32,970 bases of DNA from Planctomycetota bacterium (lineage in GTDB: Bacteria > Planctomycetota > JAJSAM01). Below are positions 8,912 through 32,439 of the stretch, piece after piece. The DNA is taken from NCBI GenBank assembly GCA_025459285.1, contig JALOQY010000013.1, positions 1 through 32,970 of the forward strand, read 5' to 3'. Made by a program: the position numbers and the translations under genes. The first letter of the stretch is position 1. Every line of letters starts with the position of its first letter. The notes beneath the pieces are model-generated. The model made no database searches. It had not been told where the DNA came from and worked only from the letters and a program-made list of their open reading frames with translations.

Positions 8912-9732
8912 GCTCCGGCGCCCTCCGGGGATGCGAGCCAGGCGACGAGGGACAGCACGGCGCGGGCGATGGCCGCGAATTCCTCCGGCGTGACCTGCTG
9001 GCCGCGGTCGCTGGCGGCCAGCGCCGGGTCCGGGTGGACCTCGATCAGGAGGCCGTCGGCGCCCGCCGCGGCGGCGGCGAGGCTCATCGGCTTGACGAGG
9101 GCCGCCCGGCCCGTGGCGTGGGACGGATCGACGATGACCGGCAGCGGAGAGACGGCCATTGCCGCGGGGACGATGGCGAGGTCGAGGGTGTTCCGGGTGG
9201 CGGTCTCGAACGTGCGGATGCCGCGCTCACAGAGGATCACGTCCTCGTTGCCGCCGTCGAGGACATACTCGGCGGCGGAGAGCCACTCGGCCAGCGTCGC
9301 GCTCATGCCGCGCTTCAGGAGCACGGGCTTGCGGATCCGCCCGAGCTCCCGGAGCAGCGTGAAGTTCTGCATGTTCCGGGAACCGACCTGCAGGACGTCG
9401 GCGCAGGCGGCCACGGCCTCGATGTGGCGGGCGTCCATGACCTCGGTGACGATCGGCAGGCCGGTCTCGGCCTTCGCCGCCGCGAGGATCCGCAGCCCCT
9501 CCTCTCCGAGGCCCTGGAAATCCCGCGGAGACGCGCGGGGCTTGTAGGCGCCGCCGCGGAGCATGTGGGCGCCAGCTTCTTTCACGAGGCGGGCCGTGCG
9601 GATCGTCCGCTCCTCGGTCTCCACGGCACAGGGGCCGGCGATGAGGACGAAGTCCCTTCCCACGGCGCGCCCGCCGACGGTCACCGTTCGCCGGGCCGGT
9701 CGCGCCGGCGCACCACATTCCGGATCACTCAT
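8908..9732 (-). CDS. aroF: 3-deoxy-7-phosphoheptulonate (DAHP) synthase, type I-beta core
   Basis: About 274 residues. It condenses phosphoenolpyruvate and erythrose-4-phosphate into DAHP, the first shikimate-pathway step. The KDO8P/DAHP synthase-like core is complete: [112 protein letters not shown] and [16 protein letters not shown]. There is no fused N-terminal ferredoxin-like or ACT regulatory domain and no chorismate mutase domain, so feedback control by aromatic amino acids would need another mechanism. An ATG at 9732 and a GTG at 9741 are both possible, and neither has a good Shine-Dalgarno. It is the first gene of the operon, downstream of a sigma70-like promoter. Confidence 0.93.
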
Positions 9733-9763
9733 CGCTCGCACCGCTTCGCGCGCGGTCTCCCAG

Positions 9764-9793
9764 GGTATCGGCCGCGGAGAGCATGGGGGTCAA
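9764..9793 (-). promoter_or_regulatory. Putative sigma70 promoter for the aro operon
   Basis: On the minus strand TTGACC (9788-9793) and GATACC (9764-9769) are separated by 18 nt. The -35 box matches consensus at 5 of 6 bases, the -10 box at 3 of 6. The position leaves a leader of roughly 25 nt before the DAHP synthase ATG. It is a weak prediction from sequence alone. Confidence 0.35.
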
Positions 9794-9943
9794 ACCCTCC
9801 GGGGACGAGGAAGTTTCGTCCGCCGACCGGAACATCCTACCCCATGGCGCGCCCCGCGGTTTCACGCCGGCCGCGCGTCCGGCGCGGACGGAGGTGCGAA
9901 GCGGATCTCGAGTGCATCCGCTGGTCGTGACTTCCCCTCATCC

Positions 9944-9998
9944 AAATCGAAATCGAAATCGGTATCGGTATCGGTATCGCAATCGGTATCGCAATCGC
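9944..9998. repeat. Hexanucleotide array, downstream end of element A
   Basis: About nine imperfect 6-bp units of the ATCGAA / ATCGGT / ATCGCA type on the plus strand. Read along the element (minus strand) they are TTCGAT-type, the inverse of the array at its other end. The two arrays therefore form degenerate terminal inverted repeats. Confidence 0.9.
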
Positions 9999-10017
9999 AA
10001 CCCCCCTCCCGCCCTCC

Positions 10018-10245
10018 GTACCCGGCAGGCTCCTCGCCCACCTGGAAGCCCCTTCCACCCAACCGGCTGAGCATGGCGGCCATGCGATCCGACATCCTTT
10101 TGCGGGCCGGGCTCTCGGCTTCGTCCAGGGCCTCGCCAACGACCAGGACATCCTGAATGGCGGCGCACTCCAAGTGGTCGAGTCGTGGGCCTTCTCGAAA
10201 GGTCACGCCACGAAGCCGATGCGAGCTGATGGGCATCGAGTTTCT
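10018..10245 (-). pseudogene. Remnant of an S23-family four-helix-bundle protein (copy A)
   Basis: The N-terminal KLDAHQLAS and, after a frame change and an internal deletion, LECAAIQDVLVVGEALDEAE followed by RMSDRMAAMLSRLGG can be read. This is the start and the C-terminal helix of the S23 (23S rRNA intervening-sequence protein) family. The middle, including the family's SIPLNIAEGNGK-like segment, is missing, about 130-140 nt relative to copy B. The break lies at about 10172-10186, where short similar sequences (CTTGACC / CTCGGCC in the intact form) could have recombined. No intact start or stop is evident. Normal family length is about 115-125 residues. Confidence 0.75.
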
Positions 10246-10264
10246 CGTGTTCTGGGGCCGTGGT

Positions 10265-10326
10265 TTTTCGATTTCGATTTCGATTTCGATTCCGATTTCG
10301 ATTTCGACTCCGATCCCGATTTCGAT
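10265..10326. repeat. Hexanucleotide array, upstream end of element A
   Basis: About ten 6-bp units, mostly TTCGAT on the plus strand with TCCGAT and CCCGAT variants. Along the element (minus strand) it reads ATCGAA. It translates into dipeptide strings in some frames, which are meaningless as protein. Confidence 0.92.
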
Positions 10327-10428
10327 TGTCCGGACTGACGGTCACGAATCCCGATCTGGCCTTCGGGCTCGTGGGCGCCTCCGGCGTCGCGGCGGTGGAC
10401 CGATGGTCGGTGGTAGGATCTGGGGGTC

Positions 10429-11910
10429 ATGGCGAAGTACGCCCTGGGGATCGCTGTCGTGCTGGCCGGCGCGGGACTGCTCCTGTGGTCGCGCGCGACT
10501 CCATCGGAAGCCCCTCCTGCGCCGGAGACCGGCGTGGCGGACGGGGGACTTTCGGCCGCGGGCGAGGGCCCGGCCGAGTCTCCTGCCGGAAGGGGAGCCC
10601 CTTGGCGGCTCGTGGTCTTTGTCACCGACTCGTCGGGGAAGCCGGTGGAAGGGGCCACGGCCTGCTTCGGCGACGATCGGTGGGAGTTCCTTCTCGGTCC
10701 GTCCGGCCCGGACGGCTTCCTCGAGGGCATCGTGGCCGGTCACGGCAGGCTCTCCGTCTTCGGGCCGGACCGGGGCTCCCGTGCCTTCGTCGAGGGGCTG
10801 GGTACGGAGTCCACGGTCGGGAAGGAGGTCGCCGTCCGCCTTGTTCCGGGAGTGCCGATCACGGGGCGTGTCGTGGTGCCGGCGCGGGAGGGGGTTACTC
10901 CCATGAAGGCGCACGTCCGGGCGGAACTCCTCGAGGACAAGGACTGGGCGACCGTGGAGTGGGCCCTGGCGGGGGAGGACGGTGCCTTCGAGTTCCCGTC
11001 GCTCCCACCCGGGCGCTACGCGCTCACCGCCTTCCCCCGCAATGAGTCGGCGGGACAGTGGGAATCCGACCTGGAGCCCACTCTCGCCGAGGCCGGAGCC
11101 CGCGGAGTCGAGGTCCGACTCGTGCGCGTTGCGAGCCTCCACGTGCAGATCGTCGAGGCGGGAGAGGATCCGCCGGAACCCGGCCCGGTGGATGTGTTCC
11201 TGTGGGATCCGGGCGGCGCGCTCGTCGCGCAGCGGCTGGGGGTGTTGAGATTCCATGGCCTGGTGTTCCGGATCGCCGCCGGCCGCAAGTATCGCGTCAC
11301 GGTGGAGTGCCCCGGCTGGCGGCAGGAGGGCACGGGTGAACTGGAGATCCCCCCGGGAGCGCCCGAGGCCGAGGTGACCGTTCCCCTCCGTGTCGACGAG
11401 GACCCCGGGGCGACCCTCGAGATCATCCTGCACGACGAGCGGGGGGAGCCGGTCCAGCGGATCGGCATCGGGGTGAAGCAGGATCGCTGGCCGCAGATGA
11501 CTCGGCCCCGGAGCCTCGGGGAGACCGGCTGCCGCCTGGCTCTCTCGCCCGGCAACTGGTGCGTGAAACTCGCCCCCGATGGAGCCCGGGACTCCGGGGA
11601 GCCGTGGCTCACCCAGGTTCTCGACGTGGACCTCGGACCGGGCGAGACGCTCGTGCGCGAGGTCACGGTCGTCCGCGGTGGCTGGGCCCGGTTCCTGTAC
11701 GAGGACGAGGACCGGGCGGAGCTCGTCGTGATCGAGGGGCCCGAGTGCCCGGAGCTCTCGATGGACGGCCGGTACAGCCTCGTTCCTGGCGGCCGGTGCG
11801 TGCTAGCCACGGGCCATTGGATCGTGGAACTGCGGCGGCGCCTGGCCGATCCCGTCCGGAGGGACTTCGACCTCTCTGCCGGGGAGAGCGTGGAGATCGA
11901 CTTCCGGTGA
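10429..11910 (+). CDS. Membrane-anchored carboxypeptidase-regulatory-like domain protein
   Basis: 493 residues. An N-terminal membrane anchor or uncleaved signal (YALGIAVVLAGAGLLLWSRA) is followed by a Pro/Ala/Gly-rich linker to about residue 57. A chain of transthyretin-like beta-sandwich repeats follows: LVVFVTDSSGKPVEGATACF, ITGRVVVPAREGVTPMKAHV with FEFPSLPPGRYALTAFPR, LHVQIVEAGEDPPEPGPVDV, and LEIILHDERGEPVQRIGIGV. The GKPVEGA and LPPGRYALTA patterns are hallmarks of CarboxypepD_reg-like modules. No enzymatic domain is present, so an extracytoplasmic adhesive or structural role is likely. The ATG is preceded by a GGGGGT stretch. The gene is first in a plus-strand group and lies about 100 nt from element A. 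Confidence 0.72.
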   Translation: MAKYALGIAVVLAGAGLLLWSRATPSEAPPAPETGVADGGLSAAGEGPAESPAGRGAPWRLVVFVTDSSGKPVEGATACFGDDRWEFLLGPSGPDGFLEGIVAGHGRLSVFGPDRGSRAFVEGLGTESTVGKEVAVRLVPGVPITGRVVVPAREGVTPMKAHVRAELLEDKDWATVEWALAGEDGAFEFPSLPPGRYALTAFPRNESAGQWESDLEPTLAEAGARGVEVRLVRVASLHVQIVEAGEDPPEPGPVDVFLWDPGGALVAQRLGVLRFHGLVFRIAAGRKYRVTVECPGWRQEGTGELEIPPGAPEAEVTVPLRVDEDPGATLEIILHDERGEPVQRIGIGVKQDRWPQMTRPRSLGETGCRLALSPGNWCVKLAPDGARDSGEPWLTQVLDVDLGPGETLVREVTVVRGGWARFLYEDEDRAELVVIEGPECPELSMDGRYSLVPGGRCVLATGHWIVELRRRLADPVRRDFDLSAGESVEIDFR

Positions 11911-11954
11911 GCGGGCTTCTTGCCCCCGCGCCACCGGCCCGCGAGACTGTCCGG

Positions 11955-12428
11955 ATGACGGCGGAAGGACAGAATCGCCCTGACCGCGCGCGGCCGCACG
12001 CCTCGCGCCTTCTCCGCGGGGTGCTGTTCGCGGCGGGGTGCCTCTGCGTCGTCCTCGGCGCCGTGGGGGCCTTCCTCCCCATCCTACCCACCGTCCCGTT
12101 CCTGCTCCTCGCCGCGGCCTGCTACGCGCGGTCCTCCGAGCGCTTCCACCGCCGGCTCCTTTCGAGCCGCATGTTCGGCGCCACGCTGCGCGCATGGGAG
12201 GATCACCGGTGCATCCCGGTCCGGGCGCGACGCGTCGCGCTGGCCCTGGTCCTGCTGGCCTTCGGCTCCTCCGCCGCGCTGCACCTCCATCGGCCGATCA
12301 TCGCCGCGGCCCTCGTCGCCGCGGGTGTCCTGGCCTTCGCCCTGGTCGCGCGCATCCCCCGGTGCGGATGCGCCGATCCGGCACCGGTCAAATCCGGCCG
12401 AAAGTCGCCCCCCCCGAACGGCCGATAG
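11955..12428 (+). CDS. YbaN/DUF454 family inner membrane protein
   Basis: 157 residues from the ATG at 11955. The core matches DUF454: LLRGVLFAAGCLCVVLGAVG, then FLPILPTVPFLLLAAACYAR, SSERFHRRLLSSRMFGATLR and WEDHRCIPVRARRVAL, followed by one or two more membrane helices. The IPTTPF-like sequence and the HRWLxxHxxFG-like segment are the family's signature. The cellular role of YbaN is not established. An in-frame GTG at 11907 overlaps the previous stop (GTGA) and would add 16 residues. The ATG is preferred because those extra residues do not look like part of the family. It is probably co-transcribed with the upstream gene. Confidence 0.85.
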   Translation: MTAEGQNRPDRARPHASRLLRGVLFAAGCLCVVLGAVGAFLPILPTVPFLLLAAACYARSSERFHRRLLSSRMFGATLRAWEDHRCIPVRARRVALALVLLAFGSSAALHLHRPIIAAALVAAGVLAFALVARIPRCGCADPAPVKSGRKSPPPNGR

Positions 12429-12433
12429 AAAAT

Positions 12434-12478
12434 CGCCGGCGGTCAGGCCGGGCGGACGAAAGTTCGGCTCCGCCGGCG
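12434..12478 (+). promoter_or_regulatory. Inverted repeat between the DUF454 gene and the next start
   Basis: A perfect 9-bp inverted repeat, CGCCGGCGG (12434-12442) and CCGCCGGCG (12470-12478), encloses 27 nt that contain a second small palindrome (CGAAAGTTCG). It ends directly against the Shine-Dalgarno GGGGAG of the following gene. It could attenuate transcription or translation. There is no U-run, so it is not a classical terminator. Confidence 0.4.
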
Positions 12479-12488
12479 GGGAGAACGC

Positions 12489-14423
12489 ATGCCGTTGAAC
12501 GGGAAAGGCGGAGGGGGACCTCCGGGGCTTCTTCTCGCGGATGCCTGGGCGACCTTTACCAAGGTCGCCGCGGTGTTTCCCGAGTCGTGCCGCCTCGTGC
12601 GTCAGGCCTTCACGGCGATGCAGGAGGGATTGTCCGCCGTGTTTTCCCCGGCGGCGGAGACGGCATCGGGCCGGCTTGCCGTCCTCTTCCGCGGGAACAC
12701 GATGGAGGTCGGGGGCGGAACTGTGGACTTGGCGCCGGGCACCAACCTGGCGTGGCTCGCGGACCGGGTCCGGGAGTCCGCGCTCCTCGGGGTCGCGTTC
12801 CACCCGGAGGTGGATCTGGACTCCCTGATGCGGTTCACGCGCCGGCTCCTGTCGAACCGTTTGCGGGAGGTGCGGGAGCCCGGTTTCGAGGAGCTCTGGC
12901 CCGAGACCTACCGGGGGGTCGATCTCATCGACCTGCGGTTCACGGGTACGTTCGAGGAATCGGCACCGGCGGGGAGTTCGCCACGCGCCACCCGGCCGGC
13001 GAGCCCGGAGACGCCGCCGGCACCGGAAACCGACGGCGACGAGGCGCTGGCGCGCCTGCTGGAAGGGGATCCCCGGGTCCGGGCCGCGCTCGCCGCACTC
13101 AAGTCGACGATCGCCCGCCAGGGTGCGGAGGGGGGGGCGACCCGCGAGCTCGACATCCTCTCCCTGATCGTGAGGCATACCCCTCACGACCTGACCGGAG
13201 ACCCCGGGGTCGCGGCACGGATCGCACTCGAGGCCATTGGAGAACTGCGCCGGAGGGTGGAAGCCGGTCCGTCCAGCCCGGAAATCGTTCCCGTGATGAC
13301 CCGCAACGCGCTCGAGGCGAGCCGGGTGCTCCTCGGCCGATCGGACCCCGGGTCGGGGGAGAGCACGGCGGCAGCGGATCCCGCCCCGATCATCATCGGG
13401 GACCGGGATGCCGCGATCGAGGACGATCCGGAGGCGCTGGTCGCCGAGATCGCGGCCCTGCCGCCTCCTTTTGCCGGTCGTGTCGCGCTGCGCGACGCGA
13501 TGGGACCCGGTGAACCGCTGGCCGTCCTGCTGCACTTCCTCGCCGACCCCGCCGAGGCGGTCGCCGGCGAGGCGGCGAGGAGACACGTCTTTCGCCTGCT
13601 GGCCGAGCCGGCAGCCGAGGTGGGAGTGGTCCTTCGCCGAAATCTCTCCGTCCCGTGCAACATCGACGACGAAGAGGCGAGAGGCCGCCGGGAGCGACTG
13701 GCGGGCTTCCTTCGCGAAGCGCACTTCTCGCACTTGCTCCGGACCTTCGAAATCGTGTCCGTCAAGGGTGTCCTCGAGAGCTTCCCCGCAGGCTTCGGGC
13801 TGTTCCTCGACTCCGTCGATCCGCAGTTCGATGCCGAGATGGCGGAACTGGAGCGGGTCCTCGAGGAGCTGGGACGTGATCGGATCCTCGCCGCCCGGCA
13901 GGTCCTCGTCCATCGCGAGGGGCTCCTCGATCCGGCGCGGGCCGGAAAGGCGCTCGCCCTCAGCTCTCCGGCCGCTCTGCCGCTGATCCGGATCATCGTC
14001 GAGGAGGGAGGGGCGACGCTGCGGAAGAGGGTGGCGACGGCCCTCGCCCGGATCCGGGGAGATGAGCCAGCGGCCTGCGCGCTGCGGTTCGTGCACGATC
14101 CCGCGGATCTCCCCCGCACGTACCTCGTCGGGCTCACGGACGAGCCCCCCGGCTCCGGGAACCGGTCGGTCTTCCGCCGGACCGTCGCCAGCATCCTCTG
14201 CCGGTTCGTGCGGGGGACCACGGGGTCTCCCGCGGAGAGCGACGCGAGGTGCGCGGCCATCTTCCACCTCGCCCTATTCCGTGAACCCGAAGCCGAGGCG
14301 CTGCTCTCGGCGCTCGCTCGCGGGCAGCGGACGGGGCTTCTCTCGCGGGAGCCCCGGGCGATCCGCGAAGCCGCTCGATCCGCGCTGAGCACGGGGCCGG
14401 CCCGGCTCTTCGAGGGAGGGTGA
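12489..14423 (+). CDS. Large helical protein of unknown function, partner of the HD-GYP gene
   Basis: 644 residues with no signal peptide or membrane helix. Residues about 15-125 form a helix-rich domain (FTKVAAVFPESCRLVRQAFT, then LAVLFRGNTMEVGGGTVDLA and FHPEVDLDSLMRFTRRLLSN) that resembles the N-terminus of the downstream HD-GYP protein in layout. A Pro/Ala-rich linker follows near 155-180. The remainder is alpha-helical with HEAT-like spacing (EAVAGEAARRHVFRLLAEPA, AELERVLEELGRDRILAARQ, ALPLIRIIVEEGGATLRKRV, AIREAARSALSTGPARL). No catalytic motif is recognised. GGGGAG precedes the ATG at 12489. The stop lies 2 nt before the ATG of the HD-GYP gene, so the two products are probably made together. 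I infer a scaffold or sensor role. Confidence 0.8.
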   Translation: MPLNGKGGGGPPGLLLADAWATFTKVAAVFPESCRLVRQAFTAMQEGLSAVFSPAAETASGRLAVLFRGNTMEVGGGTVDLAPGTNLAWLADRVRESALLGVAFHPEVDLDSLMRFTRRLLSNRLREVREPGFEELWPETYRGVDLIDLRFTGTFEESAPAGSSPRATRPASPETPPAPETDGDEALARLLEGDPRVRAALAALKSTIARQGAEGGATRELDILSLIVRHTPHDLTGDPGVAARIALEAIGELRRRVEAGPSSPEIVPVMTRNALEASRVLLGRSDPGSGESTAAADPAPIIIGDRDAAIEDDPEALVAEIAALPPPFAGRVALRDAMGPGEPLAVLLHFLADPAEAVAGEAARRHVFRLLAEPAAEVGVVLRRNLSVPCNIDDEEARGRRERLAGFLREAHFSHLLRTFEIVSVKGVLESFPAGFGLFLDSVDPQFDAEMAELERVLEELGRDRILAARQVLVHREGLLDPARAGKALALSSPAALPLIRIIVEEGGATLRKRVATALARIRGDEPAACALRFVHDPADLPRTYLVGLTDEPPGSGNRSVFRRTVASILCRFVRGTTGSPAESDARCAAIFHLALFREPEAEALLSALARGQRTGLLSREPRAIREAARSALSTGPARLFEGG

Positions 14424-14425
14424 CC

Positions 14426-15823
14426 ATGTGCCGGGAGTCTGGCATCGACATCGTGGCGGAAGTGGAAAACGCCACGGTCACGGATCTGGCCGAGGAACTG
14501 AGCTCGCTCATCCTGCAGGCCCGCTTCTTCGGCCGCGGTCACCGCGTGATCGCGGAAGGCATCGATCTGGTCCTCCGGATCTGTGCGCGGCTCCATGCGG
14601 CGCGGAGAGGGGGGCCGGTCACCATCGGCTGCGCGGACGGCCTGCTCTTCGCGGACTCGCGACCCCTGCTGCGAGCCGACCGGGCCGCGCAGAAGCTGCG
14701 GCCGTTCCTCGAGTCGCTGGGCGCCGGCGGCATCACCATGGAGCCGGAGTGCGGCGCTGAGGACCTCCGGGCCCTGCTCGGACTGGCGGAGTGCCGGAAG
14801 CCGGAGGAACTGGGCGTGGCGGGCGCCAACCGCGAACTGGCGGCAAACGGGACCGGAGGGATCCGCATTCTCCCGCTCTATTCCGAGACCCCTTCCCTCG
14901 AGGGGGACCGCGAAGCACCCCAGGCGGCCCAGAGGATCGTTACCGTGTCGGAACGGGTGTACGAGGGGCTGTTCGACCACCTCACGGAGGTCATGCTGCG
15001 GCTCGTCCGCGGAGAGCTCCACTTCCTCGAAGAGACGCAGGCCGAGGTGGAACGGACCCTGTCCCGGCTGAGCGAGGATGCCGCGTCGGTGTTCGACACG
15101 ATCCAGCGCGAGACGTCCCGCTCGGACGTCTTCCAGTTCCGGCACTCGATCCGCGTCGGCTGCCTGGCGCTGGAGTTCGCCCGCGCGTTGACCGATGACC
15201 GCGAATTGCTGCTGAGGCTCGGCACGGCCGCACTCCTGCACGATGTGGGGAAGCGCGACGTTCCGCCGGAGGTGCTGCGGCATCCCGGCCGACTCTCCGG
15301 CGAGATGCTCGAGGCGATGCGCCAGCATCCCCGTTACGGGGCGCGACTGCTCCTCCGCATGCCGGACAGCGACCCGCTGGCGGTGGCGATCGCCTTCTGC
15401 CACCATCGCCGCTCGGACGGAGGCGGCTACCCCGAGAGCGTGGACCTCGCGGAGCTTTCGCTCGCGACGCACGTCGTCAAGATCTGCGATGTCTACGAGG
15501 CGCTGACCGCCGAGCGTCCCTACAAGCCGCGGATGACGCCCCGTCGCGCCTATCGTGTGATGATCGGCATGTCCGGTCAGCTGGACCCGGCCCTTCTCCA
15601 CCGGTTCATCGACGTGGTCGGCGTCTGGCCGGTGGGGGAGCGGGTCCGGCTCCGGAGCGGGGCCGTGGGCCGGGTCGTGGCACAGACCGGATGCCATGAT
15701 CGGCCGGTGATCCGACTGGAGGGGGAGCGCGACCCGGTGGACCTGCGCGGAGCCCGCGGGGATGACCTCGGACCGGTCGCCGGATGTCCCGTGGAACATC
15801 CCGAGGAGCAGCCGGTCTCCTGA
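14426..15823 (+). CDS. HD-GYP-like phosphohydrolase with an N-terminal sensor-type domain
   Basis: 465 residues. The C-terminal half is an HD-GYP-type domain: FRHSIRVGCLALEFARAL, then LLHDVGKRDVPPEVLRHPG near residue 270, AIAFCHHRRSDGGGYPES near 330, VVKICDVYEALTAERPYKPR and a final RHAYR-like segment (TPRRAYRVM). Such enzymes hydrolyse cyclic di-GMP or a related cyclic dinucleotide. Here the signature HHExxDGxGYP reads HHRRSDGGGYP, with Arg replacing Glu, so activity is uncertain. The N-terminal 110 residues (ILQARFFGRGHRVIAEGIDL, VTIGCADGLLFADSRPLLRA) are not a receiver domain and share a layout with the N-terminus of the upstream gene. The ATG at 14426 follows GGGAGGG by 5 nt, better than the GTG at 14420. 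Confidence 0.88.
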   Translation: MCRESGIDIVAEVENATVTDLAEELSSLILQARFFGRGHRVIAEGIDLVLRICARLHAARRGGPVTIGCADGLLFADSRPLLRADRAAQKLRPFLESLGAGGITMEPECGAEDLRALLGLAECRKPEELGVAGANRELAANGTGGIRILPLYSETPSLEGDREAPQAAQRIVTVSERVYEGLFDHLTEVMLRLVRGELHFLEETQAEVERTLSRLSEDAASVFDTIQRETSRSDVFQFRHSIRVGCLALEFARALTDDRELLLRLGTAALLHDVGKRDVPPEVLRHPGRLSGEMLEAMRQHPRYGARLLLRMPDSDPLAVAIAFCHHRRSDGGGYPESVDLAELSLATHVVKICDVYEALTAERPYKPRMTPRRAYRVMIGMSGQLDPALLHRFIDVVGVWPVGERVRLRSGAVGRVVAQTGCHDRPVIRLEGERDPVDLRGARGDDLGPVAGCPVEHPEEQPVS

Positions 15824-16077
15824 CACAAGAGATCGAGTGGGGGGGCTCCGGCGTCGGATGGTCGATCCCGGCGAGTGGAGAGAAGCGTTCAGGCGGGATC
15901 GCTTCGTGGCCCGATGGAGGATCGTGTCCATGCGCTCCTCCTCCGATGCGCCGATCCGACGATCGCCGCGGTCGGTGCAGATCCTGACCGGCGCCGCACG
16001 GCGCGCGTCGGGCAGCGGGTCCGGAATGGCGGGCGACCCGGTATGATGACCCGGGCGCCATGCGCCGGGAGGGAACC

Positions 16078-18969
16078 ATGCTGGACCTCGAGACGATGCG
16101 GTTCGCCGAAGTCACCGCGCCGCCGGCCCTCGTGATCGCGGGGGAGACCGCCGCTCGCGGGCTCGACCTGACCCACCTCGCCGTCACCGCGCGGATCCGC
16201 GGTCTCGCCGCGGAGACCACGATGCTGATGACGTTCCGCAACCCCCACGACCGGGTCCTCGAGGGCGAACTCGTCTTCCCGCTGCCGGAGGGGGCGGTGG
16301 TCTGCGGCTACGGCCTCGACGTCGAGGGGGAGATCGTGGACGGCGTCGTCGTGGAACGCGAGAAGGCGCGGGTGGTCTTCGAGACCGAGGTCCGCAAGGA
16401 CCTGAAGAAGGACCCCGGCCTGGTGGAGCACGTGAGGGGGAACGTCTTTCGCACGCGCGTCTATCCGCTGCCGGCGCGCGGGGAGCGGCGGGTGAAGGTC
16501 ACCTTCGTCTCCGACCTCCTCGATCGCGACGAAGCGGCATTCTACGTCCTCCCCCTGAACGTGCCGGCGCCACTCGGGGCATTCGACCTCGAGGTCTCGG
16601 TGCCCGCCGATCTGCCGGCGCCCGTCGCGCTGGGCGGAGGGTTTGCATTCCCCGACTTCCACCGCGAGGGCGAGTCCCTGGTGGCAAGGGCGAAGCTCGT
16701 GAACGCGAAGCCGGCGAGGCTCGTGGTGGGGTTGCCCGACCTGCCCGACCGGTACGCGGCGGTGGAACGCGGCGAAGACGGCGGGACGTACTTCTGTCTC
16801 TTCTGCCGCCCGCCGGAGACGGCCGCGCCGCCCGCGGCGCCGCCGGGGCGCATCGGACTCCTCTGGGATGCGAGCCTCAGCCGGGCGAGGGCCGATCGGA
16901 CGAGGGACTTCCGGCTCCTCGACGCGATTCTCAGGAAGTTCGGGCACGTCACCGTGGATCTCCTGGTCTTCCGCGAGCGGGCGGACCCGGTGCGGACGTT
17001 CCGGGTGACCGACGGCGATGGCGGGGAACTCCTCGCCGCCTTGCGCGACGCGCCCTGCGACGGCGGGACGGACCTCCGCGCGATCGCCGCGGCGCCCGGC
17101 GGGTGCGATCTCCACCTCCTCTTCTCGGATGGCCTCGCGTCCGTCGGGACCGATCTTCCGGCGCCTGTCGCCGCGCCGCTCTTCGCGCTTTCCGGCGCCG
17201 GGGAGTGCGATGGTGGAGTGCTGCGCCACCTCGCGGAGCGGAGCGGAGGGGCGTACCTGCCGCTCGCCTCGCTGACCGATGACGCCGTCCTCGATGCGCT
17301 CACGCGACCCGTCTTCCGCTACCTCGGCGCCACGGGCGAACTGGACGCCGTCGAGGAGCTTCGCCCCTCCGCCGGGACCCCGGTGACGGGGCGCTTCCGG
17401 CTCACCGGGAGGCTCGTCGGACCGAAGGCCTCCCTGGAACTGGCATTCGGCCACGGTACGCGCACCGCGGCCGGGATCGGCTTCACGGTCCACGCGCGCG
17501 GCGCCGCGCCGGGCACCGTCATCCCTCGGATCTTCGCGGCGGAGAAGGCGGCCGAACTCGCGGTCCGTGCCGACCGGAATGGTGCCGAGCTGCTGGATCT
17601 CGGGCGGCGCTTCGGCCTCGTGACCCCGAATGCGTCGCTGCTCGTCCTGGAGACGCTGGATCAGCACCTGTCCCATCGGATCGAACCCCATCCGTCCCGC
17701 CGGGCTCTGCGGGACGAGTATCTAAAGGCCGTTACGGTCGCCGCCGGGGACGAGGAGCGGCGGGTCCGGGACAAGCTCTCGCGACTCACCGGGCAGTGGC
17801 GGGAGCGGGTCCGCTGGTGGGAGGAGGAGCACGTTCCGCGCAAGGAGCCCATGGAAGAGGAGAAGACGGGCCGGCACCGTTTCCTCGCCCGCATGGGGCC
17901 TGCGCCCTCCCCGCCGGTCGCGATGCCGGAGGCGCCGGCCTTCGCGATGGCGATGGCGGCGCCCAGGGCGGAGATGGCGGACAGGGAATGCGGGGCCGGG
18001 GCAGGCGCGCCGCCGGAGGCCGAGCCCGTCGCCAACCGGCCCCGCTCCGCCGGGGTCTCCGTGGCCCTGAAGCCCTGGGACCCGGCGACGCCGTACCTCG
18101 ACGAACTGAAGCGAGCCGGCGCCAGGGGTGCCTACGCCCGTTATCTCGACCTGCGGGCCGAGTACGGCGCCAGCCCGGCCTTCTACCTCGACTGCGCCCA
18201 CTTCCTCCTGCGCGAGGGCCTCCGCGACGAGGGGCTCCGGGTGCTGTCGAGCATCCCGGAACTGCGGCTCGGCGATCCGCAGCTCCTGCGCATCGCGGCG
18301 TACATGTTCGACGAGGCGGAGGAGATCACCGCCGCCGCCGAGCTCTTCGAGGAGATCCTGCGGCAGAGACCCGAGGAGCCGCAGAGCCACCGCGACCTCG
18401 CGCTCACCCTCGCGCGCCGGGGCGAGTTCGCGCGCGCCGCGGAGCTCCTCGCGCACGTGGTCACCGGCGAGTGGGACGAGCGCTTCGCGGAGATCGAGCT
18501 GACCGCGCTCATGGACCTGAACGGGATGCTCGCCCGCGCCGCCCGTGAGGGCCGGTCCGTGCCGCCGCCGGCCCTGCCGGCCGAATTGCTCGTGATCCTC
18601 GACTGCGATGTGCGGGCGGTGCTGGCGTGGGACACCGACCTGACCGACGTCGACCTGCACGTGGTGGAGCCGAACGGCGAGGAGTGCTACTTCGCCCACC
18701 AGCGGACGGGCGGCGGCGGGTTCCTGAGCCGGGACTTCCGGCAGGGCTACGGGCCCGAGGAGTATTTCCTGCGCCGGGCCCCCGCCGGCACCTACGCCGT
18801 GCGGGCGAAGTACTTCGCGTCCGCGCGGCAGGACCTCTCCGGCGCGACGACGCTCCGGCTGCACTTCTTCACGAACTACGGTCGGCCGACGGAGAAGATG
18901 CTGCTGACGACGCTGCGCCTTGCGGAGCCGAAGGAGATCGTGGACGTCGCGGCGATCGACTTTCGCTGA
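16078..18969 (+). CDS. VIT-VWA-TPR-DUF2135 multidomain protein
   Basis: About 963 residues. A VIT domain (about 20-145) includes TMLMTFRNPHDRVLEGELVF, PLPEGAVVCGYGLDVEGE and RVYPLPARGERRVKV. A von Willebrand A-like domain starts near 257 with a MIDAS-type DASLS, a later GGTDL and an FSDG. A Pro/Ala/Met-rich linker comes next, then TPR-like helices (about 660-810: LDCAHFLLREGLRDEGLRVL, AAELFEEILRQRPEEPQSHR). A C-terminal DUF2135/YfaP-like beta domain starts near 842 (AVLAWDTDLTDVDLHVVEPN ... RAPAGTYAVRAKYF). No signal peptide is evident, which is odd for VIT-VWA proteins and suggests a cytoplasmic location or a non-classical route. GGGAGGG lies 4 nt before the ATG at 16078. A TATGAT -10-like box sits at 16042-16047. 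The intergenic 15824-16077 shows no gene. Confidence 0.88.
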   Translation: MLDLETMRFAEVTAPPALVIAGETAARGLDLTHLAVTARIRGLAAETTMLMTFRNPHDRVLEGELVFPLPEGAVVCGYGLDVEGEIVDGVVVEREKARVVFETEVRKDLKKDPGLVEHVRGNVFRTRVYPLPARGERRVKVTFVSDLLDRDEAAFYVLPLNVPAPLGAFDLEVSVPADLPAPVALGGGFAFPDFHREGESLVARAKLVNAKPARLVVGLPDLPDRYAAVERGEDGGTYFCLFCRPPETAAPPAAPPGRIGLLWDASLSRARADRTRDFRLLDAILRKFGHVTVDLLVFRERADPVRTFRVTDGDGGELLAALRDAPCDGGTDLRAIAAAPGGCDLHLLFSDGLASVGTDLPAPVAAPLFALSGAGECDGGVLRHLAERSGGAYLPLASLTDDAVLDALTRPVFRYLGATGELDAVEELRPSAGTPVTGRFRLTGRLVGPKASLELAFGHGTRTAAGIGFTVHARGAAPGTVIPRIFAAEKAAELAVRADRNGAELLDLGRRFGLVTPNASLLVLETLDQHLSHRIEPHPSRRALRDEYLKAVTVAAGDEERRVRDKLSRLTGQWRERVRWWEEEHVPRKEPMEEEKTGRHRFLARMGPAPSPPVAMPEAPAFAMAMAAPRAEMADRECGAGAGAPPEAEPVANRPRSAGVSVALKPWDPATPYLDELKRAGARGAYARYLDLRAEYGASPAFYLDCAHFLLREGLRDEGLRVLSSIPELRLGDPQLLRIAAYMFDEAEEITAAAELFEEILRQRPEEPQSHRDLALTLARRGEFARAAELLAHVVTGEWDERFAEIELTALMDLNGMLARAAREGRSVPPPALPAELLVILDCDVRAVLAWDTDLTDVDLHVVEPNGEECYFAHQRTGGGGFLSRDFRQGYGPEEYFLRRAPAGTYAVRAKYFASARQDLSGATTLRLHFFTNYGRPTEKMLLTTLRLAEPKEIVDVAAIDFR

Positions 18970-18979
18970 TCCGGCGGCG

Positions 18980-19205
18980 TGGAGAGCGGCGGGAGGACGG
19001 CCGGGACGGTGCGGCGGGCGCCGTCGCGGGCCCGCAATGCGTCTTCTTCCGAGCAGAAGTCGGAGGGCGTGAGGTCCTCGGCGCCCAAGCAGGCCAGTTC
19101 GCGGTCCCGCCGGAGGTCCCGGGAGATGCGCGCGAGATCATCCACCGACCCGAGGACCGCAGCGGGGAGCCGGTCCCGTTCGGCGCGGAGGACATCCGAG
19201 CGATG
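18980..19205 (-). pseudogene. Possible truncated minus-strand ORF, weakly HEPN-like
   Basis: A minus-strand frame starts at the inner edge of element B's array and reads ERDRLPAAVLGSVDDLARIS, then LGAEDLTPSDFCSEEDALRA and RDGARRTVPAVLPPL. The spacing of DDLARI, the SEEDALRA helix and the final helix is reminiscent of the C-terminal part of HEPN-domain proteins (toxin-antitoxin partners). The resemblance is from memory and weak. It lacks its own start (the array replaces it) and runs on, antisense, into the VIT gene without a clear stop. If real, it is a gene truncated at its 5' end by element B. Confidence 0.22.
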
Positions 19206-19210
19206 TGACC

Positions 19211-19241
19211 ATCGAAATCGAAATCGAAATCGGAGTCGAAA
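19211..19241. repeat. Hexanucleotide array, upstream end of element B
   Basis: About five units of ATCGAA type with one GGAGTCGAA variant. It corresponds to 10265-10326 of copy A and is shorter. Confidence 0.88.
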
Positions 19242-19263
19242 CGACACGGGCCCTCGACACGCG

Positions 19264-19560
19264 AGACTTGATCCTCATCGGCTCGCCATCGGCTGCGTGA
19301 CGCCGGTTTTCGAGAAGGCCCACGACTTGACCGGCGTTCATCGGTCGGCAAGAGACCGATGGCTTTGCGCCAGCCAGTACATTCCATTGAGCATCGCCGA
19401 AGGCAATGGGAAGACCGCCGGTGCGGATCGACGCCGGTGTTTCGAGATCGTGCGTGGCTCGGCCTTGGACGAAGCCGAGAGCCCGCCCGCAAGGGGGTGT
19501 TGGATCGCATGGCCGCCATGCTCAGCCGACTGGGCGGGGGGGCTTCCGGGTGGGCGAGGA
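19264..19560 (+). pseudogene. Remnant of an S23-family four-helix-bundle protein (copy B)
   Basis: One frame gives LDPHRLAIGC, PVFEKAHDL, YIPLSIAEGNGKTAGADRRR and CFEIVRGSAL, the core of the S23 four-helix-bundle family (usual form SIPLNIAEGNGKR ... RFFEIARGSALEC). Exactly 45 nt are then missing relative to copy A: the 15 residues ECAAIQDVLVVGEAL, between GGCCTTGGA and GGCCCTGGA. A one-base loss (CCCGCCCGC versus CCCGGCCCGC) then shifts the frame, so DRMAAMLSRLGG is read in a second frame. Copies A and B combined give about 106 residues, close to the family length. Both are inactivated. Confidence 0.82.
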
Positions 19561-19582
19561 GCATGGCAGGTGCGGAGGGCCT

Positions 19583-19634
19583 GATTCCGATGCCGATCCC
19601 GATCCCGATAGCGATTTCGATTTCGATTTCGATA
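19583..19634. repeat. Hexanucleotide array, downstream end of element B
   Basis: About eight TTCGAT / CCCGAT / GCCGAT units. It is inverse to the upstream array and equivalent to 9944-9998 of copy A. Confidence 0.9.
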
Positions 19635-19675
19635 TGGATGAGGGGAAAGCAGAACCAGCGGAGGCGCTGGAAACA

Positions 19676-20017
19676 TCACCGATGGACGGCGGGGGCGTGG
19701 TCGGGGATGCGGTCGGTGTGGTACTGGCCGGTGTCGAGGATGGCCAGCAGCACGAAGAGGACCACGCAGCCCAGCGCGGTGAGGAAGACCACCGCGTTCA
19801 GCGGCCGGTCCCACCGGAGGTGCATGAAGTAGAGCGCCACGAACGTGGCCTTCACCACGGCGATGGCGAGCGCCACCACGACGTTCAGCCGGCCGAGGTC
19901 GACATACGTCACGCCCACGGTCACCCCGGTGAGCACGATGAGCAACGCGCCCACCCCGAGGAGGAGGCGCAGGGGAACGACGTGCACGTGCGGCTCGGCG
20001 GCGGCGTGGTTCTCCAT
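19676..20017 (-). CDS. ctaF: Cytochrome c oxidase subunit IV (prokaryotic type)
   Basis: 113 residues with three predicted membrane helices: LRLLLGVGALLIVLTGVTVG, LNVVVALAIAVVKATFVALY (ending FMHLRW) and VVFLTALGCVVLFVLLAILD. The VVKATFVALYFMHLRWD segment is the signature of the small prokaryotic COX4 family of caa3/bo-type oxidases. The His-rich N-terminus (ENHAAAEPHVHVV) is typical too. It is the last gene of the act-cox operon. TGAGGAG, formed by the coxIII stop and what follows, acts as its Shine-Dalgarno upstream of the ATG at 20017. The role is assembly and stability of the oxidase rather than catalysis. Confidence 0.92.
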   Translation of the reverse strand: MENHAAAEPHVHVVPLRLLLGVGALLIVLTGVTVGVTYVDLGRLNVVVALAIAVVKATFVALYFMHLRWDRPLNAVVFLTALGCVVLFVLLAILDTGQYHTDRIPDHAPAVHR

Positions 20018-20027
20018 GGCGGACTCC

Positions 20028-20876
20028 TCAGTGGATCAGGTAGAGCAGGGGGAAGAGGAAGATCCAGATGACGTCCACGAGGTGCCAGTAGAGCCCCCCG
20101 AGGTCCACCGGCAGCCAGTACGAGGGCGAGAACGCCCCGCGCCGGGCCCGGAAGAAGAGCCACGCGATCACGATCATCCCGGCGATCACGTGGAGGCCGT
20201 GGAGGCCGGTCATCACGAAGTAGATCCCGAAGAAGAGGTGGACGCTCTTCCGGCCGGCCTCGGCGGCGACCTCCCGTGTGGGCGGTGGCGCCAGGCCCTC
20301 GGGACCGGCGGCGGACGGCACGAGGCGCGGAGCGTCGGCGGCGCCCGGAGGGGGAGCCGGCGCGCCGGCGGGGGCCGGATCGGCGGGCGCCGGGGCCGGC
20401 GGGGCGTCGGGCGGCGCGTCCGCGGGCGCAACGGGGACGCGGCCCGCGCCGGTCTTCTCCGCCGCCGGCTGGAAGTGCCGTCCCGGCAGCAGTCCGTCCC
20501 GGATCTTGTGGCTGTACTCCACGTACTTCACGCCGAGGAAGCAGCACGCGAAGAGGAAGGTCGCCGCAAGGAAACCCAGCAGGGCCCTCCGGTTCCCGAG
20601 CTGCGCCGCGCGGACGGCGAGCGCCATCGTCACCGAGGAGACGATGAGGACGATCGTGTTGAGACCACCGAGAGACTTGTCGAGGTAGCGATGCCCGGCG
20701 AGGAAGACCTCCGGCTGATTGGCGCGATAGACGGCGTACCAGCAGAAGAGCCCGCCGAAGAGCAGCACCTCCGTCACGAGGAACAGCCACATGCCGAGCT
20801 TGCCGGCCTCGAACTGCTGGCGGGGCGTCTCGTAGTGGTGAGCGAGGTGCGCGGGGTGGTCCGGGGCGTGGCTCAC
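20028..20876 (-). CDS. ctaE: Cytochrome c oxidase subunit III with a Pro/Ala-rich insert
   Basis: 282 residues from a GTG that overlaps the coxI stop (GTGA), with AAGGAGG 8-9 nt upstream. The family core is clear: [20 protein letters not shown] ([12 protein letters not shown]), [40 protein letters not shown], then [24 protein letters not shown], and the ending [20 protein letters not shown]. Between the third and fourth helices, residues about 136-208 are a low-complexity Pro/Ala/Asp linker ([20 protein letters not shown]) not present in typical subunit III. The insert keeps the frame, and the helices on both sides are intact, so the protein is probably functional. Subunit III stabilises the oxygen-reducing core. 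Confidence 0.93.
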
Positions 20877-32364: not shown

Positions 32365-32400
32365 TTCAGACGGAGCCACTCCGGTGGGTCTGCACCCATT

Positions 32401-32439
32401 CTTCGGATTCGCACTTCTGATTCACTCTTCTGATTCACT
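32401..32439. repeat. Three consecutive 13-bp direct repeats upstream of actA
   Basis: CTTCGGATTCGCA, CTTCTGATTCACT and CTTCTGATTCACT lie head to tail. The last two are identical and the first differs at four bases. They overlap the putative P2 promoter, so they may be an operator with helical-phase (13-bp) spacing. Confidence 0.7.

Follow-up and report, generated by a model that had tools for sequence, protein, structure and literature searches.

Intervening sequences (IVSs) in ribosomal RNA (rRNA) have been known for more than 25 years, to our knowledge without an accepted origin and without an accepted function for the S23 protein. In Coxiella, Leptospira and others, the 23S rRNA IVS is about 430-450 nt long; its terminal inverted repeats form a stem whose loop holds an S23 open reading frame (ORF), with tandem heptamers directly before the start. 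The Coxiella IVS has a 28-bp terminal stem that is cleaved by RNase III at the first repeat, and three heptamers (GACAGAT) before the start codon, the copy number of which varies between strains; a mobile origin has been proposed for the 23S rRNA IVS, which is known as an excised RNA (PMC4990558). Excision by RNase III has been published for Coxiella and other rRNA IVSs only. Here, we describe S23 units located outside rRNA, starting from a stretch of 32,970 nucleotides (the window) from a Planctomycetota bacterium (assembly GCA_025459285.1, contig JALOQY010000013.1). The window contains two such units, unit 1 at about 9890-10335 on the minus strand and unit 2 at about 19209-19672 on the plus strand, each made up of an imperfect ATCGAA-type hexamer array, what is left of an S23 gene encoding a four-helix bundle, and the inverse of that array. 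We consider it likely that both are degraded remains of a small selfish mobile element whose usual length is about 450-520 bp and which is composed of a left array, an S23/Avd-family gene and a right array.

Two other described systems are relevant here. RAYT genes, which are associated with repetitive extragenic palindromic (REP) sequences, are framed by inverse short palindromic ends, are accompanied by many gene-less end pairs (REPINs) and encode an HUH nuclease. Cyanobacteria carry short tandemly repeated repetitive (STRR) heptamers, which Vioque is said to have found in 1997 inside the RNase P RNA gene. According to the available part of the published account, these 7-bp tandem repeats form hairpins between genes and near the 3' ends of genes and are of unknown function (PMC2670836).

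The array-S23-array unit and its distribution

The initial annotation had placed an ATCGAA array upstream and an inverse TTCGAT array downstream of an S23-family ORF, with the same layout in a second unit. The arrays and their orientation were found as described in both units, as was S23 sequence, but neither ORF is intact and the arrays are imperfect, mixing ATCGAA, ATCGGG, ATCGGT and other hexamers. Unit 1 retains residues ~70-158 of the consensus protein together with a degenerate N-terminus, the middle being lost, while unit 2 has residues 2-77 and 109-157 in different frames with a gap between them, and the Pfam scores of both remnants are under threshold. Both window S23 ORFs are pseudogenes, and the units are decayed copies.

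Copies of this type are widespread. A consensus of the window-type copies matches 80 loci, most of them at 48-84% identity, carried by Lentisphaerota, Verrucomicrobiota, Kiritimatiellota, Desulfobacterota, Planctomycetota, Acidobacteriota, Hydrogenedentota, Gammaproteobacteria, Chloroflexota, Riflebacteria and others, while eight other genomes from the class to which the window belongs have no window-type S23 (0/8). Relatives in many phyla and none in the same class suggest that the unit spreads horizontally. No S23 units were found in viral contigs or in phage records, none of the plasmids searched carries the window's S23 subfamily, and the PADLOC defence families gave no match. The only conserved gene of the units is S23/TIGR02436, with E-values of 2e-16 to 5e-18 against TIGR02436 for intact relatives, and further matches of the protein are to the Avd family (phrog_3206, E 7e-11) and to the solved S23 structure 2gsc. 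With a median ratio of nonsynonymous to synonymous differences (pN/pS) of 0.19 over 794 pairs, the S23 protein is under purifying selection. A depletion of stops in its +2 frame (z -11) was considered as a sign of selection for in-frame embedding and rejected because control genes share the bias (observed/expected 0.78 vs 0.82).

The source genome of the window (G000; 5.0 Mb, 534 contigs, 88% complete) holds 14 array sites on 13 contigs. A 22-mer of (ATCGAA)n, allowing up to 2 mismatches, has 50 matches in the whole genome, and the same pattern read backwards has 0. At most of these sites the arrays accompany S23 sequence or form S23-less inverted pairs which share the same ends, and several copies without S23 retain only the array pair and the ends (C312, C103); in this genome, the arrays are thus tied to S23 rather than being equally common elsewhere. 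Two array sites, L017 (G000:C114) and L027 (G000:C521), are flanked by another dispersed repeat family (GGGGACGTTGGTAACTTGTCAACTTGCC...).

To score the layout, the 150 bp upstream of S23 were compared with the inverted downstream region. In the window subfamily (73 loci) the mean inverted-repeat score is 20.2, while 468 random placements of the same geometry reach 14 at most, and 64 of the 73 loci lie above the 99th percentile of shuffles. In a survey of 114 diverse S23 loci, which was not random since about half of the genomes were reached via array-bearing relatives and the rest via Planctomycetota relatives of the window, 74 loci score at least 16 compared to 2 of 1304 control placements, and 65 score at least 18 compared to 0 of 1304. 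Among plasmid S23 loci, all cyanobacterial except one from Riemerella, 14 of 15 have the array pair, with period-7 arms. These counts, together with the locus-specific matching of arrays described below, refute a chance meeting of two separate repeats, a reading for which nothing was found in favor and which is scarcely credible.

The arms are tandem arrays, and among 142 arms scoring at least 16 a clear period of 7 was seen in 55, of 6 in 45 and of 8 in 14. The right arm lies inside the S23 frame in 30 of 45 period-6 cases compared to 4 of 69 with period 7 or 8, which fits the frame-keeping property of 6-bp units. In the window's subfamily the right array (in unit orientation) is part of the S23 reading frame, at its 3' end (DSDSDFDFDLDEG...), and since about 40-50 bp of conserved sequence follow it, the array is not the outermost edge there.

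Occupied and empty sites

Comparison of close relatives showed the same site occupied by a unit in one and empty in another. Near-identical plasmids pair an occupied with an empty site at L335/L350, L331/L346 and L347, L328/L343-L345, L334/L340 and L342, and L325/L349, and at the site of the L334 unit, L341 carries an S23-less derivative. In genome G041, a GGCACGGA-type unit lies within the DNA polymerase III alpha gene, where G041 has 514 bp and a genome of the same genus has 61 bp; the host frame is open across the unit, which places 147 extra residues between E. coli residues 575 and 576. Other units lie in frame within DNA-methylase genes (L223, L036). The flanks of filled and empty sites are 85-97% identical, and by this presence and absence the unit bounded by its arrays is an insertion, which on plasmids lies at stop codons within operons. 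We infer that the direction is gain rather than loss, and for the polymerase gene a gain is close to certain because the solved homologues lack the insert.

Apart from S23 units, short S23-less array insertions are also present in frame in the L040 ORF and in the L223 and L036 ORFs (EEGRHEGTEARRHEERN; WSVDSD...TTNHQ). Such insertions are a likely source of odd low-complexity stretches in database proteins.

The same sites bear on the view that the arrays act at the RNA level only, as an mRNA stem serving autoregulation, RNase III processing or transcript stability, with the unit being an immobile operon gene that is occasionally lost. The arms do pair in the predicted folds of all six units tried, same-strand plasmid units begin at the stop codon of the upstream gene (annotated coordinates), and the available part of the STRR account proposes that cyanobacterial heptamer hairpins stabilize transcripts or couple translation (PMC2670836). 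However, an immobile gene does not fit the filled/empty polymorphism between nearly identical flanks or the insertions inside polymerase and methylase genes; nor does it fit the 14 dispersed sites in one genome or the unit of L335, which alone (418 bp) matches two other plasmids without shared flanks. An RNA device without mobility is distinctly unlikely.

For the window's own copies, the empty sites that the initial annotation had suggested looking for in close relatives were seen only as an absence of arrays beside orthologous genes: in genomes of the same family, the neighbors of the window copies (DAHP/EPSP synthase; cytochrome oxidase) have no adjacent arrays, and no base-for-base empty site could be demonstrated for these copies. 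The proposal of the initial annotation that the arrays, although simple sequence, serve an S23 cassette as its terminal inverted repeats is supported by the relatives, the control placements and the empty sites of other units.

The initial annotation had also raised a link to RNA or retro-mobility. Part of this holds, as published work describes the same anatomy for the 23S rRNA IVS (PMC4990558) and S23 matches the Avd protein of diversity-generating retroelements (DGRs), but no step involving RNA or reverse transcription was shown. In its full form, the idea is that reverse transcription copies the RNA of the unit and that S23 takes the part played by Avd in DGRs. A DGR-type reverse-transcriptase gene which is intact in G006 (L316), beside an Avd-like gene, is broken in G005 (L110) by a unit with S23 and by two array pairs without it, which replace 540, 220 and 156 bp, and the IVS is an excised RNA (PMC4990558). 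Against this, the G005 case is a single one and may be chance, and in the loci read no reverse transcriptase lies in or consistently beside the units. Signatures of a cDNA type were not seen either, no search having been aimed at them. These loci also lack a template/variable repeat and a linked reverse transcriptase, which sets them apart from DGRs, and none of the window ORFs beside the two units is a reverse transcriptase as judged by eye from the translations. Retro-mobility is unlikely.

Array recognition and relation to known systems

The repeat unit is locus-specific and differs even within one genome (e.g., G054, G053). In 70 of 85 loci, no other right array matches the left array as well as the one from its own locus. 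For TCG-type arrays, the hexamer compositions of left and right arrays have a cosine of 0.725, compared to 0.271 +/- 0.032 (maximum 0.400) after permutation. Array similarity also tracks S23 similarity (Mantel r 0.612; permuted maximum 0.112). Arrays share 49% of their 6-mers where the 4-fold sites of the adjacent gene differ at 0.67, and 1% where the S23 proteins are unrelated. Between phyla, S23 cores with 90% amino acid identity have synonymous sites near saturation (pS ~0.7). To judge from these comparisons of sequence, the arrays appear to be functionally constrained, most simply via recognition by S23, which gives this protein a candidate role in recognizing its own repeat array.

Mutation alone might also produce paired arms, if tandem slippage and template switching in a quasi-palindrome copied one functionless arm onto the other. 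Such repeats are slippage-prone, the arms are imperfect, and array copy number differs among Coxiella strains (PMC4990558). This neutral account is disfavored because slippage would erase the array conservation seen at saturated synonymous divergence, and the specificity of the arrays for S23 genes speaks against it as well; we regard it as very improbable.

In the reading preferred here, S23 would bind its own cognate array, as an RNA stem or a DNA hairpin, and thereby mark the element for movement, while cutting and joining would be done by host or other enzymes in trans. The 23S rRNA IVS would be a copy of this element that inserted into an rRNA helix and is trimmed there by RNase III, and the S23-less array pairs would relate to S23 units as REPINs relate to RAYT genes. 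As a wider proposal, which is tentative and which we would not yet call probable, the units may represent a widespread kind of mobile element that lacks a transposase and instead relies on an S23/Avd protein, which recognizes the cognate array at both ends and directs the movement of units and of S23-less pairs, the STRRs included, with IVSs as the members that landed in rRNA and with new array specificities arising along with new S23 variants.

Several observations weigh against a mobile element of this kind. Besides the selective make-up of the 114-locus survey, the insertion scars vary: one has a 5-bp direct repeat (TTCTA, inside the stop codon at the L335/L350 site), and elsewhere the unit replaces 11-42 bp or 150-540 bp (L110/L316). 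These differing signatures are unlike those of one classical transposase; no enzyme for the movement was identified. The co-divergence of array and protein could be plain co-inheritance combined with selection on the stem itself. The source genome, at 88% completeness, has matches to integron integrases below the cut-off only. Finally, one S23 branch, loci L063-L106 in the Planctomycetota genomes G009, G021, G031 and G051, has the array pair in just 1 of 44 scored loci and instead a strong hairpin upstream of S23 which covers the ribosome-binding site (CTCCTTCC...GGAAGGAG). Intact S23 genes without arrays had been named beforehand as an outcome that would count against the unit; S23 genes lacking the arrays occur in this branch of four genomes, and the layout is otherwise common. 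The high-copy array-less genes are possibly a different type of S23 element or autoregulated copies.

A constant target duplication was considered and rejected, as the 5-bp repeat is found in L335 only and target DNA is replaced at other sites. The units share inverted ends, dispersed copies and short gene-less derivatives with miniature inverted-repeat transposable elements and insertion sequences, but they have no transposase, no fixed end sequence and no constant duplication of the target. The likeness to RAYT/REPIN systems includes a single protein gene framed by inverse short repeat ends, an array type that tracks the protein, and dispersed gene-less inverse end pairs (C312, C103; L341; L110 units 2 and 3). 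However, S23 is a four-helix bundle without an HUH nuclease, no HUH (Y1) transposase gene is present, and the ends are tandem arrays of a varying unit, unlike the fixed REP hairpins of RAYTs.

Integrons were weighed as another source of mobility, in which case the unit would be a normal gene cassette of ORF and attC that IntI moves, with the arrays as passengers. About 12-13 of the 80 window-subfamily relatives have attC-like right ends, which in the window are worn, and the bottom strands of L195, L188 and L194 fold as attC, L195 being a textbook case. A GTTRRR left edge, as in cassettes, is found in 7 of 13 attC-type units compared to 14 of 65 other units and a background of 3.5%, and IntI scores above the cut-off in 12 of 33 carrier genomes. 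On the other hand, among the folded tails L195 alone is strongly better than shuffles (z -5.5), several attC-bearing genomes lack IntI, as does the source genome, and no attC is visible by eye in the majority of units, those of period 7-8 that were inspected on cyanobacterial plasmids among them. The inverse array pair is general regardless of attC, and the units occur as single dispersed copies, both of which differ from gene cassettes. That the unit is simply a cassette is unlikely, and as a general explanation it is refuted by attC-less units at empty/filled sites. Because several units have attC-like right ends and GTTRRR left edges, integrons look like one vehicle among others, used by a subset of units in some genomes. 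No literature linking S23 with integrons or tandem repeats was found.

In comparison with the 23S rRNA IVS, the S23 units have an S23-family (TIGR02436/PF05635) ORF, complementary termini and a tandem array before the start codon. They differ in their location, being chromosomal or plasmid-borne and outside rRNA, with insertions at stop codons and within protein genes, and a motif search found no 23S motif in 324 loci; their repeat unit varies per locus, with many of period 6 or 8. The cyanobacterial units have tandem, hairpin-capable 7-bp repeats like the STRRs, and the available part of the published STRR account does not mention S23 (PMC2670836). Because cyanobacterial plasmid S23 units have period-7 arms and one S23-less derivative is known (L341), we propose that STRRs are probably derived from S23 units. 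Mobile S23 units would thus tie rRNA IVSs and the 7-bp repeats of cyanobacteria to one general, apparently mobile unit. On cyanobacterial plasmids, S23 units also lie between cas6 and cas4 of CRISPR operons (L326, L330; type I-D in Anabaena sp. 90), which may explain why '23S rRNA IVP' is among the reported associations of CRISPR adaptation genes (PMC10910872).

Structure of the window copies

Unit 1, read on the minus strand, starts at 10328-10335 with GTCCGGAC, a worn version of GTTGGGAC / GTCAGGAC found at the left edge of the sister copies C139, C77 and C30. Its left array of ATCGAA-type hexamers (TTCGAT on the plus strand) occupies 10264-10327, based on Tandem Repeats Finder (TRF; 10266-10327, period 6, score 89) and pattern matches. 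What is probably a degenerate S23 N-terminal piece follows at 10190-10262, as read from the ORF translations (...EHEKLDAHQLASASW compared to the consensus GHERLDVYRLAIGYVAW). The C-terminal half at 9901-10185 covers consensus residues 70-158 at 82% identity, is stop-free and enters the right array at 9940-10002 (ATCGAA/ATCGGT on the plus strand), the inverse of the left array according to sequence, TRF and pattern matches. Beyond this array, a conserved right end (GGATGAGGGGAAGTCACGACCAGCGGATGCACTC) at 9890-9939 was delimited by comparison with sister copies, whose attC-like ends suggest that it is a worn attC-like end.

Unit 2 lies on the plus strand, with a left array of ATCGAA hexamers at 19209-19241 and its inverse, a right array of GATCCC/CGATTT type, at 19583-19634, both assigned from sequence, TRF and pattern matches. 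The S23 N-terminal half at 19249-19476 corresponds to consensus residues 2-77 at 80% identity and has a weak Pfam match to PF05635, and a C-terminal piece in another frame (residues 109-157, 55% identity) at 19523-19675 overlaps the right array. The conserved right end (ATGGATGAGGGGAAAGCAGAACCAGCGGAGGCGCTGGA), compared with sister copies, extends over 19635-19672. Positions 9000-20500 of the window match no Rfam family.

Elsewhere in the window, there is a nearly perfect 36-bp direct duplication at 1045-1116 (GAAAAGTGAAAAGGTACGTACGTCCCCTAACGGATC; TRF 97% matches, score 137), and TRF reports about 3 copies of a 13-bp tandem repeat (TCTTCTGATTCAC) at 32400-32439.
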